DNA of 39,723 bases, taken from Acidobacteriota bacterium (GTDB lineage Bacteria > Acidobacteriota > UBA6911 > RPQK01 > JADFOI01). Shown piece by piece: positions 33,148-38,943 of this stretch. A model generated the notes under the pieces. It had not been told where the DNA came from. It worked only from the letters and a program-made list of their open reading frames with translations, and did no database searches. How positions within the stretch are numbered: position 1 is the first letter of the stretch; each line of letters starts with the position of its first letter. A program made the translations under genes and the position numbers. The stretch covers positions 1 to 39,723 of the forward strand of contig JADFOI010000017.1 of NCBI GenBank assembly GCA_022562935.1, given 5' to 3'.

Positions 33148-34479
33148 CTAAATCGGAAAGTTTAATTTAGGTAACCCTTTGGTAGAAAAGCCTTTACTGA
33201 TCTTATTCATCATCTTTTTTGTCTGCACATACTGCTTGAGCAGACGATTGACTTCGGAAACCGGTCTTCCGCTGCCTTTTGCGATTCTCTTGCGCCTTGA
33301 GGCATTGATGGTCTTGTAGGCAACCCTTTCCTTCAGGGTCATGGAATTGATGATTGCTTCCAGATAAGTTAATTGTTTCTCATCGACCTGAAGTTTATTC
33401 AATCCCTTCAGCGGACCCATTTGGGGAAGCATCCCCAGTACCTGCTCCAGCGGACCCAGCCTCCGGAGCTGCCTCAGTTGTTGACGGAAATCCTCCAGCG
33501 TGAACTCGTTGCGCTGCATCTTCTTGAGCATTTCCTGAGCTTGCTCTTCATCCACGACTTCTTCAGCCTTTTCGATCAAACTCAGCACATCACCCATCCC
33601 CAATATGCGACTTGCCATTCGCTCTGGATGAAAAACTTCCAATGCCTCGTACTTCTCACCCACACCGATGAACTTGATCGGCTTTCCTGTCACCGTCTTG
33701 ATCGAGAGGGCAGCTCCACCCCGAGCATCTCCGTCCATCTTGGTCAAGACGACGCCGGAAAGATTCAAACGCTGGTTAAACTCGCGGGCCGAGTTCACAG
33801 CGTCCTGCCCGGTCATGGCATCGGCCACCAGGAGAATTTCAGCCGGCCGCACCTCCTCAGCAATGCGATCCAACTCCATCATCAACTCTGAGTCGATGTG
33901 TAAGCGTCCCGCTGTATCGATCAGGAGGATGTCAAACCCCGTGTTACGAGCGTGCTGTAGAGCATTGCCCGCCAACTCCACCGCGTCACTGCTCTTTTCC
34001 TCGTAAACCCCAATTCCAATTTCGCGGGCAATAACCGAGAGTTGCTCCATAGCGGCGGGGCGGTACACATCTGTTGAAACCATTAAAGGCTGGAACCCTT
34101 TCTTCTTCAACCACAGAGCCAACTTTCCTGTGGTTGTCGTCTTGCCACTTCCTTGAAGACCCATCAACAAGATGACGCTTGGAAAAGGTTTGGAAAACAC
34201 CAGTCCAGCCTCCTCCCTCCCAAAGAGTTCGGTGAGTTCGTCACGAACGATCTTCACAACCTGCTGAGCAGGCATCAGATTGCGAAGCACCTCTTCTCCG
34301 AGGGCCTTCTCCTTGACCCGAGATACGAACTCCTTCACCACCTTAAAGTGAACATCCGCCTCCAGGAGCGCAATGCGAATTTCTCGCATCGCCACCTCGA
34401 TATGGAGTTCATCAAGCCGTCCCTCACCCTTCAAATCGCGAAGAATTTTCTGTAATTTTGTTGATAAGTTTCCTAACAT
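33148..34479 (-). CDS. ffh: Signal recognition particle GTPase Ffh
   Basis: Ffh with 4.5S RNA targets nascent membrane proteins to FtsY. The 443-aa protein has an N domain (MLGNLSTKLQKILRDLKGEG), the G domain with LMGLQGSGKTTTTGKLA, DTAGRLHID, TKMDGDARGGAALS and GVGEKYEALEVFHPERMASR, and a Met-rich M domain ending MMNKISKGF. The frame is open to 34650, but ATG 34479 has AGGA upstream and is the canonical N-terminus. It is divergent from selB with 49 bp between starts. Confidence 0.96.
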   Translation of the reverse strand: MLGNLSTKLQKILRDLKGEGRLDELHIEVAMREIRIALLEADVHFKVVKEFVSRVKEKALGEEVLRNLMPAQQVVKIVRDELTELFGREEAGLVFSKPFPSVILLMGLQGSGKTTTTGKLALWLKKKGFQPLMVSTDVYRPAAMEQLSVIAREIGIGVYEEKSSDAVELAGNALQHARNTGFDILLIDTAGRLHIDSELMMELDRIAEEVRPAEILLVADAMTGQDAVNSAREFNQRLNLSGVVLTKMDGDARGGAALSIKTVTGKPIKFIGVGEKYEALEVFHPERMASRILGMGDVLSLIEKAEEVVDEEQAQEMLKKMQRNEFTLEDFRQQLRQLRRLGPLEQVLGMLPQMGPLKGLNKLQVDEKQLTYLEAIINSMTLKERVAYKTINASRRKRIAKGSGRPVSEVNRLLKQYVQTKKMMNKISKGFSTKGLPKLNFPI

Positions 34480-34528
34480 TCCTGTACAAGACTCCTGTAG
34501 AAGCATTTTACCCAGGTTTGAATCTAAT

Positions 34529-36460
34529 ATGAAAGACATCATCGTTGGGACGGCGGGCCACATTGACCACGGTAAAACCACGCTTGTGAAGGCTTTAACC
34601 GGTATCGACACCGACCGGCTGGAAGAAGAGAAGCGCCGTGGCATCAGCATTGATATCGGTTTCGCTCATATGCAGCTGGGTGATTCTCGGGTGGGTTTTA
34701 TCGACGTCCCCGGACATGAAAAGTTTGTCAAGAACATGCTGGCGGGGATCGGTGGAATTGATCTCGTCTTGCTTGTGGTTGCGGCTGATGAATCGGTTAT
34801 GCCCCAAACCATCGAGCATTTTCAGATTTGTAAGCTGCTGGAAATTCCAAGAGGCGTTATCGCCATCACCAAAAGGCACCTGGTTGAAGAGGAGCTGCTT
34901 TCTCTTGTTGAAGCTGAGGTTCGGGAACTCGTCGAGGGCAGCCCGTTGGAAAAAGCTCCCATCGTAGCCTTGGATAGCGTTTCCGGGGAAGGCGTGGAAC
35001 TCCTGAAGGAAACACTATTGAAAGAAATCGAGAAATCGCAGCAGGACATCACCGCTGCTCGGCGTTCCCATCAGATCTTCCGTCTTCCCGTTGACCGCAT
35101 TTTCACGATCAAAGGATTCGGAACCGTGGTCACGGGAACCCCTTATGCCGGTGTTCTGAAAAAGGGAGATGCCGTGACCTTGTATCCCACCCTCAAGACA
35201 GGAAAGGTCCGAGGCATTGAAATTTTCAACCAGGAGGCTGACCTGGCCATGGCCGGCCAAAGGACAGCACTGAATCTCAGCGGATTGGAAACGGAAAATT
35301 TGAACAGGGGAATGGTCATTTCGGGGTCCAACGCTCTTGCCTCCTCCTCAATGTTTGACGCAATCGTTCACTTGCTGCCCACTGCCCCCAAAGGACTCAA
35401 GGACCGCAGTGCGATCCGATTTCACCACGGAAGCGCTGAACTGATCGGTCGAATCCATCCGCTTGAAAACGACCAACTTCGCCCCGGGGAGTCGATGCTG
35501 GTTCAGTTCCGAGTGCAGAGTCCGACCGTCTGCTTCCCTAAGGATCACTTCATCTTACGCCGTTACTCACCCATGACGACCATCGGTGGGGGTGTGATTC
35601 TGGACGGTACCCCAAAAAAACACCGGCAAAAGGACTTGCCCGACATCCTCCCCGGATTGAGAAAGCTGTGGTCGATGCTCACAGAGCAAGATCCGGGTCT
35701 GGACAGTGCCTTTGTCGAATACTTCGTCAAACTGTACCGTTTCTCGGGTGTAAGCTTGTCCGACCTGGCAGCCCGCACGGGGTTTCTGGAAAATTACCTA
35801 CTGGATCTCCTGAAGGGACTGGATTCCATAGTTTTGATCTCCCAGCAGCCGCTGCTGGCTGTTTTTCGACCGGATCTCGAGGAATTCAAGACGAAAATCG
35901 CCCAATTCCTTGCTGATTTTCACTCCCGAGTTCCCTTGATGGTGGGTGTACCACGAGAAGAACTTAAAGAGCGATTCTTTGGAAAAGCCGCCAATTCTTA
36001 CTTCACATTCGTTCTCAACCAGATGGAGAATGAAAAGAAGATTCAAATCAAGGGCAGTACCGTGTCGCTGCAGGGGCAACAGCTGGTACTGAGCCCAGAG
36101 CAAAACCAGGCGAAGGAACACATGTTGCAACTGATTCAGAGAAGGGGTCTGCAACCTCCCACCTTGGAGGAACTCCTGAAAACAATACCCTATGACCGTA
36201 GCGTGGTCCGGGATGTGTTTTATTTTCTCTTACAGCAGGGAGAACTGATACGGGTCAGTGAAAACATCGTCCTCTCGCCCGACCGGATCACTTTTCTCCA
36301 ATCCCAGCTCAAGGAGTCCTTTCCCAGGGGGCACACCTTTACAGTTCCCGAGTTCAAGAAACTCTTTGGAATCAGCCGCAAATACGCGATTCCCTTCCTC
36401 GAGTTCCTGGACCGCAAGCGCATTACTCGACGGACTGGCGACAAACGCGTGGTGCTGTGA
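34529..36460 (+). CDS. selB: Selenocysteine-specific elongation factor SelB
   Basis: SelB delivers Sec-tRNA(Sec) to UGA codons that are followed by a SECIS hairpin. The 643-aa protein has an EF-Tu-like GTPase core: [13 protein letters not shown] (G1, residues 7-19), [11 protein letters not shown] (G2), DVPGHEKFV (G3), ITKRHLV (G4) and SVSGEG (G5). Beta-barrel domains follow, with [16 protein letters not shown]. The C-terminal winged helices end [12 protein letters not shown], the SECIS-binding region. In G4 the guanine-specifying Asp is His117 (CAC, 34877-34879), which is unusual. The frame is open from 34373 inside divergent ffh; ATG 34529 is the canonical start. tatA follows after 58 nt. 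selA, selC and selD are not in the window. Confidence 0.95.
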
Positions 36461-36518
36461 TTGACAACAAAGAGGGTTAGGCGTACCATAAGGAGAGAAT
36501 CAAGCGAGGTACAAAAAC

Positions 36519-36704
36519 ATGGGCAGTCTTGGAATGTCGGAACTAGTCATTATCCTTCTGATTGTGATTGTGATTTTCGGCGCCAGTCGGCTTCCGCAAC
36601 TGGGAAAAGGACTGGGAGAGGGCATTCGTAACTTCAAAGGCTCTCTCAAAGGTGGACAAGAGGAAGACACCGAGAAGGAGTCCGAGCAAAACACCTCTTC
36701 ATAA
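36519..36704 (+). CDS. tatA: Twin-arginine translocase subunit TatA/E
   Basis: This 61-aa protein has one N-terminal membrane helix ([20 protein letters not shown]), the FGxxxLPxLG hinge, an amphipathic helix [17 protein letters not shown], and an acidic tail. This is the TatA pattern; it oligomerises to form the Tat translocation site for folded proteins. tatC is not nearby. AAGGAGAG lies about 22 nt upstream; GCGAGG is closer to the ATG. Confidence 0.94.
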
Positions 36705-36834
36705 TTCGAACCCTCTCCAGATCTTCAGTTCTTTTTTCTAGTCCATCTCTATCATCTTTCATCAAGGACCCACGACACCTCTATAGAATCGAGATTTTTC
36801 AGACTCATTGGATATAGTTCTTCTTTTACTCACT

Positions 36835-37038
36835 AGCCGGGATTATGCATAAATTGTCTACTGCAGAGCCGCAAACATCCAGCGTGCTGCACCGACTGCG
36901 TTGTGCTTCCTTGGGCTCCTCGGCGTACTGCACGAGTACGCCTGCGGGGCCCTTGGGTTACCCGCTTGCGGGTTCCCACGCCTTGTCATCGCAGCGCTTG
37001 CGGCTCTTCGTCACGACAACCTATACATAGTCCCGGCT
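36835..37038. repeat. R2 quasi-palindromic element, copy C
   Basis: The ends are imperfect inverted repeats of about 50 bp. The left starts agccgggattatgcat at 36835 and the right ends with its near-complement at 37038. Inside are GGCGTACT-GCACG-AGTACGCC (36922-36942) and ACCCGCTTGCGGGT (36960-36973). The right arm resembles the R2 core at 631-653 and 2256-2278. The flanks 36705-36834 and 37039-37135 contain no gene that I can see. Confidence 0.65.
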
Positions 37039-37135
37039 GCGTTAATACTCGAGAAAACGCCAGTGAAAAAGGGGGAAGAGGAACGGGTTAGGGGGTCAGG
37101 AAGCCAGAGCTCGCCTGGTGCGCAGGAAGAGGAGA

Positions 37136-37465
37136 TCAGGCAGGATTTTCTCTCGTTTCCGAGAGGATCCACTCCAGATAGGCTGAATCTCCGTCGTCGA
37201 TGGAGAGGGCAATCACTTCCGGCACTTCATAAGGGTGGAGCTCTTTGATGCGGTGGGTCAATAAGGACAGCCGATCCTCGGCAGTCTTCATGATCATCAG
37301 ATGTTCGGTCGCACGCTCCATTGCCCCTTTCCACCTGTAGATCGAGGTGATCTTGGGAACAATATTAACGCAGGCTACGAGTCGTTCCTCTACCAGTAGC
37401 TGGGCGATTCGTTCCGCCTCTTGGTGGGTATCTATAGTAGAGAGAACCACGTAACTCTTAGACAT
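37136..37465 (-). CDS. cutA: CutA-family divalent cation tolerance protein
   Basis: CutA is a small trimeric PII-like protein with a debated role in metal tolerance. The sequence has SYVVLSTIDTHQEAERIAQL, VACVNIVPKITSIYRWKG and HPYEVPEVIALSIDDGDSAY LEWI, all characteristic. I start at ATG 37465 (109 aa). An ATG at 37483 would overlap the start of divergent ftsB. Confidence 0.93.
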   Translation of the reverse strand: MSKSYVVLSTIDTHQEAERIAQLLVEERLVACVNIVPKITSIYRWKGAMERATEHLMIMKTAEDRLSLLTHRIKELHPYEVPEVIALSIDDGDSAYLEWILSETRENPA

Positions 37466-37476
37466 TCGTACTGGCC

Positions 37477-37788
37477 ATGACATTTAGCCGAAAAGCGAAA
37501 AGAGAACTTTCCTGGATTCTGCTATTTACAGGTTGTGTGGCCCTACTGAGCATCCTTTTCTTCGGAGACGGCGGTTTGATACAGCTGCGTAAGTATCGGG
37601 CAGAACTACGAGAATTACAACTGGAAAATCTAGATCTCAGACAACAACGCAGTGACTACCTGCAAAAAATCGACAAGCTGAAGACCGACCCTTATCAATG
37701 GGAGCGCATCGCTCGAGAGCGATACAACTTCGCCCTTGAGGGCGACATCATCGTGAACCTCCCCGTAGAATCAGTGAAACGCCCGTAA
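37477..37788 (+). CDS. ftsB: Septum formation initiator FtsB/DivIC
   Basis: This 103-aa bitopic membrane protein has a short basic N-terminus, a TM helix (ILLFTGCVALLSILFFG) and a leucine-zipper-like coiled coil (LRELQLENLDLRQQRSDYLQ). The conserved C-terminal DPYQWERIARERYNFALEGD completes the pattern. FtsB bridges FtsL and FtsQ in the divisome. It starts at ATG 37477, divergent from cutA with 11 bp between. Confidence 0.9.
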   Translation: MTFSRKAKRELSWILLFTGCVALLSILFFGDGGLIQLRKYRAELRELQLENLDLRQQRSDYLQKIDKLKTDPYQWERIARERYNFALEGDIIVNLPVESVKRP

Positions 37789-37976
37789 TTGCCAAAAGGA
37801 CCCCTGTCAATCAACAAGTTGAGAGGAGTCACCGATAGCGCTGACCCCGGCAGGTCTCGACCCCGTAAAGCCCTGGGTCCGGCATCCTCGCCTTGCCAAA
37901 CTATGGTTCATTCGGTGCCCTACCTCTCTTAAATCCTTGATTTATGGGACCAATTTCCGGAACTACGTGGGTGTCA

Positions 37977-38034
37977 CCGATTCATGTGTCTCCTCCGATT
38001 CATCACCGATTCATTTTCCCCGGTTCTCCGATTC
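37977..38034 (+). promoter_or_regulatory. Four direct repeats CCGATTC upstream of the selenoprotein gene
   Basis: CCGATTCAT occurs at 37977, 37995 and 38006, and CCGATTC at 38028, with steps of 18, 11 and 22 bp. The steps of 11 and 22 bp fit one face of the helix. A related CCGATTG is at 38101. They could be sites for an activator or repressor of the Sec-DsbA gene. The rest of 37789-38163 holds an inverted GGACCC/GGGTCC pair (37798-37803, 37875-37880) and no visible gene. Confidence 0.4.
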
Positions 38035-38163
38035 TGACCATGACCGACCAAGCCTAATGGGTTCTTCGTTATGGTAGACTGGATTTTCCATGGTGTCGAA
38101 CCGATTGAAAGGCGGAAATTTAGTAAAATAGTCTTGAGTCAAGATCGGGGAGACTGAAAGGTC

Positions 38164-38943
38164 ATGACAACGAAGTGCTTCACGGTGGTCTGTCAACTGA
38201 GTCTGCTCACCCTTCTGTGTGGGACACCAAGCTTCGCACAAGGGACGTCGAGTGAAGGAATCAACGACCTTAAAGAAGAGATTGAGGCACTCAAAGAAGG
38301 GCAGAAGGCAATTCAAAAGGAACTTCAGGAAATCAAGAGCCTTCTGAGGACGAGACAGGCTCCGGTTCCTACACCTCGTGAGTTTGTTCTAGATCTTGGT
38401 GGAAGTCCTTTTAAGGGCGATGAGAAGGCCAAACTGACCCTGGTGGAATTCACCGATTACCAGTGACCGTTTTGCGGAAGACACGTCCGTGGGACGTTCC
38501 CTCAAATTGCGAAAGAGTACATCGAGACTGGAAAGGTCAAGTACGTTTTCCTGGACTATCCGTTGGAATCCATACATCAGTATGCATTTAAGGCGGCTGA
38601 GGCAGTGAATTGCGCCGCCGAACAGGGCAAATTCTGGGAAATGCATGACCGCCTTTTTGCCAATCAGAATGCGTTGGCTCTCGTACAGCTCAAATCCTAT
38701 GCGGAAGCTCTCGGTTTGGACAGCCCCAGGTTCGATACCTGCTTGGAAAGCGGGAAGTATGCGGGTGAAATTCGTAAGGATCTGGCACTCGGCGCCAAGG
38801 CTGGAATCAAAGCCACGCCTTCTTTCGGAATCGGATTCACCGACCCCGAGGATCCGAACAAGGTGAAGGTGGTTCAGACCCTAAGAGGAGCCCTGCCCTT
38901 TAGTTCCTTCAAGCCCGTCATCGACGGCCTGCTTTCACAGTAA
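38164..38943 (+). CDS. Secreted DsbA-family thiol oxidoreductase, predicted selenoprotein (UPFC active site, TGA read as Sec)
   Basis: The frame is 259 codons with a single internal TGA at 38464-38466 (residue 101). Residues 1-25 are a Sec-type signal peptide ending PSFA. Residues about 30-65 are a coiled coil (INDLKEEIEALKEGQKAIQK). A thioredoxin-fold DsbA domain follows: LTLVEFTDYQ-U101-PF-C104-GRH, VKYVFLDYPLESIHQYAFKA, FWEMHDRLFANQ, cis-Pro219 in IKATPSFGIG. In relatives the active site is CPFC, so U101 replaces the nucleophilic Cys. GGGGAGACTGAAAGG precedes ATG 38164. A hairpin after the TGA and selB nearby support recoding. It probably reduces, isomerises or oxidises periplasmic disulfides. 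A Cys-to-TGA mutation or sequence error is the alternative. Confidence 0.88.
38464..38500 (+). promoter_or_regulatory. Sec UGA codon and candidate bacterial SECIS hairpin
   Basis: UGA at 38464-38466 is followed by C. ACGTCC (38483-38488) pairs perfectly with GGACGT (38492-38497) around the loop GTG (38489-38491). A lower stem GGAA/TTCC (38476-38479 with 38497-38500) can form in a bulged alternative. The loop begins 22 nt after the UGA and starts with G then U, fitting known bacterial SECIS rules recalled from the literature. The hairpin overlaps codons 107-112 of the protein. Confidence 0.75.

Follow-up and report, generated by a model that had tools for sequence, protein, structure and literature searches.

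A predicted stalked selenocysteine-containing DsbA-type enzyme in Acidobacteriota

Within a 39,723-nucleotide stretch of DNA from an Acidobacteriota bacterium, referred to here as a whole as the window, positions 38164-38943 of the + strand in all likelihood (probability about 0.94) encode a thiol-disulfide exchange enzyme of the DsbA fold that contains selenocysteine (Sec). The region forms one frame of 259 residues, and its sole in-frame stop before the end is the TGA at 38464-38466, set in the residue context EFTDYQ-U-PFCGRHVRG. Comparison with relatives strongly supports the recoding of this TGA to Sec. The gene and the codon concerned are the following:

38164..38943, + strand: Sec-containing DsbA/DsbG-type gene, 259 aa with U101, TAA end at 38941-38943; assigned on the basis of single-TGA relatives
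38464..38466, + strand: TGA predicted to be read as Sec, U101, the attacking residue of UPFC; aligned homologues have TGA in 23 genes and TGC or TGT in 45 stretches

The original prediction had read two same-frame DsbA-like pieces, parted by a lone TGA, as one protein. The match to PF13462 (Thioredoxin_4; residues 80-235, 98.7 bits, E 5e-28) crosses the TGA and bears this reading out; PF01323 also matches the 259-residue product with 44.1 bits (Pfam). The mechanical list of open reading frames (ORFs; table 11) breaks the gene up as 38164-38466 (100 aa) plus 38563-38943 (126 aa), which is the truncation at residue 100 that had been foreseen for gene callers. Gene calling that treats TGA as a stop cuts the enzyme short, and the envelope redox chemistry of such bacteria is thus easily under-described. 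A scan of the window for TGA codons flanked by open frame, with a Cys at a distance of three residues in either direction, yielded five places, and a recognised motif is present at 38464 only.

Homologues were sought among 60 relatives, 38 genomes of the class and 396 genomes of the phylum, the phylum figures being lower bounds. At least 24 Acidobacteriota genes in at least 21 genomes, 36-95% identical, carry a single TGA inside the match. Twenty-three of the 24 were aligned (phmmer; L196 was dropped because it is identical to L195 over 120 bases around the TGA), and the TGA falls in column 101 in 23 of 23. Besides these, the 69 aligned stretches comprise 45 with TGC or TGT, among them one broken copy (L049), and one with GAC (the second domain of L031); since the set joins the TGA hits to the stronger Cys hits, its TGA:Cys ratio is not a frequency. 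The in-frame TGA is thereby aligned with the redox Cys of homologues, a mark of selenoprotein genes, and its placement at the first Cys of the CxxC motif held. Homologues with Cys and homologues with an in-frame UGA at residue 101 were both found, and the case of homologues that all lack Cys or Sec there did not arise.

The subfamily resembling the window gene, which we call type A, comprises 15 Sec genes from 12 genomes (49-95% identical, among the matches listed), whose matches all run past the TGA and end at residue 257-259 (or 255). The nearest single-TGA genes, from the window's own family (f1), are those of G002 (95% identical), G005 (72%), G001 (70%) and G004 (53%). A one-pattern scan of contigs returned one TGA-bearing match among 80 loci; its pattern contained Cys, is biased against Sec forms and says nothing on frequency.

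Some gene arrangements were seen among these relatives. In genome G037, two Sec DsbA genes of the type-A-like subfamily face each other at locus L045 (4678-5469 on the + strand, and 7122 to about 5860 on the minus strand); the minus-strand gene carries an extra C-terminal region, and a third Sec DsbA gene lies on another contig (L044). In the broken copy L049 (G033:C164), similarity stops right at the active site (query 26-102), and genome G033 has a separate Cys copy, L048.

The pattern of substitutions points to translation on both sides of the TGA. Relative to L056, differences at codon positions 1/2/3 number 29/11/70 in the 158 codons after the TGA and 25/22/50 in the 100 preceding codons. 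On a per-codon count, the same comparison gives 34 amino-acid-changing and 53 silent differences after the TGA (37 and 30 before it); the corresponding figures are 39 and 30 (37 and 24) relative to L054, and 6 and 9 (7 and 7) relative to L055. By these counts, the part after the TGA is, per codon, at least as constrained as the part before, as expected if it is translated. Together with the matches of relatives beyond the TGA, this agrees with the earlier claim that the downstream part is not decaying.

A tree of 67 domains (23 Sec and 44 Cys; L049 and the GAC domain were left out) calls for a minimum of nine changes between Sec and Cys, at least five of which are forced by starred branches; the type-A genes L178 and L193 are not firmly placed by it. 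L193 (genome G336, TGA) and L203 (genome G329, TGT) form a close pair within the same genus. Natural Sec/Cys pairs of this kind, with the exchange at the same site, make the reason for Sec testable with close relatives instead of engineered mutants.

The genome from which the window derives (G000; 3.44 Mb, 188 contigs, 89.3% complete) contains selA (574 bits), selD (374 bits) and a tRNA-Sec (71 bits, anticodon TCA), and the window itself carries selB:

34373..36460, + strand: selB, Sec-specific elongation factor, 695-aa frame with homology from 34538; Pfam GTP_EFTU, Beta-barrel_SelB and SelB-wing_2/3; TIGR00475 with 362 bits

The set of selA, selB, selD and tRNA-Sec that goes with a selenoprotein gene is thus found in one genome. 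A genome without selA, selC or selD had been named at the outset as evidence against Sec; selA, selD and the tRNA-Sec are present. The selD gene has its own in-frame TGA within SCAGU, and this selenophosphate synthetase (L004, G000:C84) looks like a selenoprotein itself. Since TGA terminates 9 of the 17 other Pfam-matched ORFs in the window, it is not a general sense codon.

Among the matches listed, 18 of the 21 genomes with a Sec form have selA above the cut-off. It was not found above the cut-off in the other three, G001, G004 and G005, which are drafts of the window's own family in 440-650 contigs with 72-91% completeness; selB scores above the cut-off in G001 and G005, and G004 has a partial match below it. 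Because these are fragmented drafts with selB matches, we read the gap as missing sequence, though it counts against full consistency. Presence of selA was also considered, and rejected, as the factor that decides between Sec and Cys: 32 of the 38 class genomes have selA above the cut-off, and for four of these (G009, G014, G020 and G033) the copies listed have Cys, so the machinery alone does not decide.

Just downstream of the TGA lies a candidate for the RNA element that directs Sec insertion in bacteria:

38472..38505, + strand: predicted bacterial SECIS hairpin; core stem 38483-38488 with 38492-38497, loop GUG at 38489-38491, weaker outer pairs; assigned from the bSECIS model as given in passages of PMC13188914 and from relatives

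In those passages, the model calls for a loop of 3-9 nt, a stem of 4-16 bp, a G in the first two loop positions, a distance of 16-37 nt from the UGA and a minimum free energy of at most -7.5 (PMC13188914). The window hairpin (6-bp stem, GUG loop 22 nt past the UGA, -9.0 kcal/mol) lies within the loop, stem, spacing and energy limits given there. Taken alone it is no better than shuffled sequences, 36 of 200 being as good, and when the 45 bases from the TGA are folded, the optimum for the window differs from the SECIS-type hairpin. Rfam yielded no named element at either gathering or relaxed thresholds, and the hairpin was therefore judged by comparison.

The type-A copies have a helix in common, ACGUC/GACGU, whose loop of five bases reads CGUGA or CGUGG in 13 of 15 copies and CGGGA in two. 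RNAalifold returned this helix as the consensus of the 15 Sec copies; for two of its five pairs there is a single sequence in which both partners have changed. In the extended structure, 81.0% of cells are paired in the Sec copies, a value reached by 3 of 500 shuffles, and 5 of 12 pairs are changed on both sides (16 of 500 shuffles), as illustrated by GUAUGUC/GACAUAC in an L045 gene and by GUACGCC/GGUGUAC in L180. Fifteen Cys copies, hand-picked out of the 45 for similar residues, pair in 58.9% of cells with one pair changed on both sides (455 and 500 of 500 shuffles, respectively). Codon choice follows the same division. Among copies with Val-Arg at the hairpin, the Val codon is GTC in 13 of 13 Sec copies vs two of nine Cys copies, and the Arg codon is CGT in 11 of 13 vs none of nine (Fisher, about 2e-4 for each); the sequences behind these codon and pair counts are not phylogenetically independent. 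All 15 type-A Sec copies form the helix with a mean pairing probability of 0.59-0.99, and 15 of the 17 Cys copies compared have values below 0.5; the Cys copies that keep a probable helix are L181 and L203, both from G329 (0.62 and 0.75), and the GAC domain has a value of 0.00. Free-energy z-scores against synonymous recodings set the Sec group apart from the others (23 Sec vs 45 others, namely 44 Cys rows and the GAC domain, L049 being left out; Mann-Whitney p about 1e-4), and copy by copy the test is significant in 7 of 23 Sec and 6 of 45 others and thus gives no per-copy separation. By these comparisons, a SECIS-type hairpin, which was no part of the original prediction, is present downstream of the TGA and is conserved in the Sec relatives. 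In the pair L193 and L203, the silent changes CAC/CAT and GTC/GTT of the Cys copy weaken the hairpin.

These data bear on three other accounts of the TGA. The protein obtained by standard gene calling is 100 residues long, as it would be if the TGA were a real stop in a decaying DsbA pseudogene or behind a 100-residue fragment; this is highly improbable given that the TGA recurs in 12 genomes, in 15 genes belonging to one subfamily, all matching past it among the matches listed, that third-position bias continues after it, that the Sec machinery of the genome is complete and that the hairpin is favoured in Sec over Cys copies. The draft state of the assembly (188 contigs) could invite the suspicion of a misread Cys codon. 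We regard such a sequencing or assembly error as the least probable of the three, since independent assemblies, both within the genus and from other genera, also have this TGA, accompanied by the GTC/CGT codon signature. Reading of the TGA as another amino acid, either Trp if the code were changed or Cys if selenium ran short, draws on the fact that Sec machinery can misincorporate Cys. It is about as improbable as a real stop: position 101 aligns with the Cys of homologues and not with Trp, and the use of TGA as a terminator elsewhere in the window argues against a changed code.

Taking the TGA as Sec, the product has the following predicted layout:

38164..38238, + strand: signal peptide, probably cleaved by signal peptidase I after SFA (residue 25); read by eye
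38260..38346, + strand: predicted coiled-coil stalk, residues 33-61; heptad score, and single helix 30-63 in the AlphaFold model
38401..38868, + strand: thioredoxin-fold catalytic domain (PF13462), residues 80-235; Pfam, and fold matches to alpha-DsbA1, BdbD and ScsC
38473..38475, + strand: Cys104, resolving cysteine of UxxC; invariant in alignments A1 and A5
38611..38613, + strand: Cys150, probable structural disulfide with Cys193; invariant in A5, aligned with a Cys of Wolbachia alpha-DsbA1
38740..38742, + strand: Cys193, probably bonded to Cys150; conserved to 90% or more in A5, opposite a Cys of alpha-DsbA1 in the alignment
38815..38820, + strand: Thr218-Pro219, the cis-Pro motif; TP invariant in A1

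The N-terminal sequence suggests export by a signal peptide. The product is probably not a lipoprotein, for Cys19 is replaced by Tyr in the 95% identical homologue L055 and no lipobox was seen by eye. The N-terminal coiled coil of the original prediction recurs in the relatives: in 14 of the 15 type-A Sec members (the exception is L193), few if any of 2000 shuffles reach the heptad score of the stalk, a figure flattered by choosing the best window before shuffling. The AlphaFold model (mean pLDDT 91.9, pTM 0.77) shows one helix, 30-63, and a DsbA-like domain. The features of the DsbA/DsbG fold, namely a thioredoxin fold with a helical insert, a CxxC or UxxC site and a TP motif, are all found, and Pro219 is presumably cis, as we take it to be in this fold. 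An N-terminal helical stalk before the DsbA domain, as in ScsC-type proteins, is likewise predicted.

The best fold matches in the PDB are Wolbachia alpha-DsbA1, corynebacterial TsdA/DsbA and BdbD. Full-length ScsC structures match with an rmsd of 10.7-18.9, for instance Caulobacter 7rgv (229 columns, rmsd 10.7) and Proteus 5id4 (241 columns, rmsd 11.7). With a single sequence as the query, the alignments with ScsC covered residues 38-226 and 41-226. In a profile search with A1 the ScsC alignment starts only at 49-62 and the stalk sequence is hardly matched, so the resemblance of the stalk to that of ScsC rests on the helix and heptads more than on sequence.

Attacking and resolving residues together with a substrate-orienting Pro are established chemistry of the DsbA fold, and the gene product can be placed in this scheme. 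SelB with Sec-tRNA(UCA) would bind the hairpin just past the TGA at 38464, as the machinery, the hairpin and the homologues suggest, and Sec would be inserted without termination. The signal peptide would carry the protein out of the cytoplasm, where the DsbA-fold domain with its U-P-F-C site would perform thiol-disulfide exchange: Sec101 would attack or be attacked, Cys104 would resolve the selenenylsulfide and Pro219 would orient the substrate. Like trimeric ScsC, the protein probably assembles from several copies through its N-terminal coiled coil, and because it would do so we favour isomerase or reductase work over plain oxidation.

The exported Sec enzyme is probably oligomeric, and an isomerase somewhat more likely than an oxidase. 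Given a Sec enzyme as such, we assign roughly even odds to an oligomeric isomerase or reductase, a distinctly lower chance to a VKOR-coupled oxidase, and a slim one to something else, such as a peroxidase-like role. As an oxidase, the selenoprotein would be a monomer-like dithiol enzyme, a DsbA proper re-oxidised by VKOR, in which the coiled coil serves to tether or space the domain; this reading competes with the isomerase assignment only. A VKOR in a 142-aa frame is present in the window's genome and VKOR also occurs in G005, the closest folds (alpha-DsbA1, corynebacterial TsdA/DsbA and BdbD) are those of proteins that we take to be oxidases, and the second Cys pair is conserved as in alpha-DsbA1. 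What makes it the doubtful choice is that VKOR was not found in four of the eight genomes searched, including the Sec-form drafts G001, G002 and G004, and that a plain oxidase has no need of the heptad stalk present in 14 of the 15 type-A Sec members. Our fullest reading is a tentative one and somewhat short of an even chance: a stalked, probably trimeric, Sec-dependent ScsC-like isomerase that forms an Acidobacteriota subfamily of its own, with repeated Sec/Cys swaps and a parallel Sec lineage of SurA-type fusions. If it is true, envelope protein folding in part of the phylum would be selenium-dependent.

Selenoproteins of this general kind are already known. Passages of the respective papers predict Sec-containing DsbA-/DsbG-like UxxC proteins from the Sargasso Sea (PMC1088965), bacterial genomes (PMC1794560) and GOS data (PMC2398784), predict DsbA-like Sec proteins in Asgard archaea (PMC11227280) and, in a 2026 review, tabulate DsbA-/DsbG-like UxxC families (PMC13188914). 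By these passages the kind has been predicted since 2005, and what is new is the stalked acidobacterial subfamily with its own hairpin consensus; the description of an uncommon selenoprotein accordingly applies to the coiled-coil subfamily and the lineage and not to the long-listed UxxC families. Among the papers listed by literature searches, there was no characterised Sec-DsbA and none on this family; the passages on Sec DsbA-/DsbG-like proteins mention no stalk, and the words 'coiled' and 'trimer' are absent from the main text of the 2026 review (PMC13188914).

The nearest named family is NF041057 (Rcas_1661 family thioredoxin-like (seleno)lipoprotein), which corresponds to the row 'DsbG-like protein, UxxC' in the tabulated part of the review (PMC13188914). 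Its catalytic domain is homologous, its name includes Sec forms and it matches 16 of 16 A1 members, more than any other NCBIfam family. However, the window protein scores 126 bits and so stays below the cut-off of 190 (eight further relatives score 102-147 bits), the match starts at residue 65 and leaves the coiled coil outside, and no lipobox was seen by eye in the window protein, whose Cys19 is not conserved in L055. The DsbA-like selenoproteins of PF01323 ('DsbA 1' in the GOS data, 'DsbA-like form 1' in the review) share Sec at the first CxxC position and the DsbA fold, but the window protein is better matched by PF13462 (98.7 vs 44.1 bits); the passages describing them name no stalk and no DsbA-like case from Acidobacteriota, and it is by these descriptions that we set them apart. 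According to the relevant passages of PMC8900818, those ScsC proteins that bear a helical stalk at the N-terminus form trimers and act as disulfide isomerases. The trimeric isomerases ScsC (Proteus, Caulobacter) and alpha-DsbA2 share the N-terminal helix before a DsbA-fold domain and give fold matches, but have Cys in place of Sec, are 20-24% identical and hardly match the stalk sequence. Wolbachia alpha-DsbA1 and Bacillus BdbD are among the closest solved folds, the former with the second Cys pair; they are Cys enzymes, unlike the window protein, and the chains matched are the catalytic domain only.

The selB gene reported in the window is indeed there, 1.7 kb upstream, but the contigs compared do not have this arrangement in common. 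We rejected the adjacency as a functional link, since no neighbour is common to the 15 contigs (two of which are the same record). One ORF, 440-461 aa long, is common to L057, L058 and L059. The roughly 1.7 kb between selB and the Sec gene (36461-38163) hold short ORFs only; three short upstream ORFs are shared with L055, and the ORFs at 37136-37483 and 37477-37788 match ORFs upstream of the G002 gene with 91 and 96%. No Pfam match was found for the ORF at 36901-37248, and no ORF upstream of the gene in L054 (G001) matches those of the window.

A second Sec lineage occurs in other Acidobacteriota, in which the DsbA domain stands behind a SurA_N-like domain and the TGA is at the same active-site position. 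These SurA_N-like-DsbA Sec fusions are:

L194, 370-1704, - strand
L195, 912-2036, + strand
L197, 1452-2531, - strand
L198, 1421-2653, - strand
L199, 1433-2491, - strand
L200, 1041-2120, + strand

The SurA_N matches (Pfam) are over the cut-off in three of them and weak in the others. Their hairpin, GAGGGUC-GGUCC-GACCCUC, is unlike that of type A. It is shared by L046, for which Pfam gave no SurA_N match; with this gene added, all seven pairs are kept in seven of seven sequences, one pair changing from G-C to A-U in two. The window genome has a SurA_N-like-DsbA fusion copy of its own (L002), which carries Cys.
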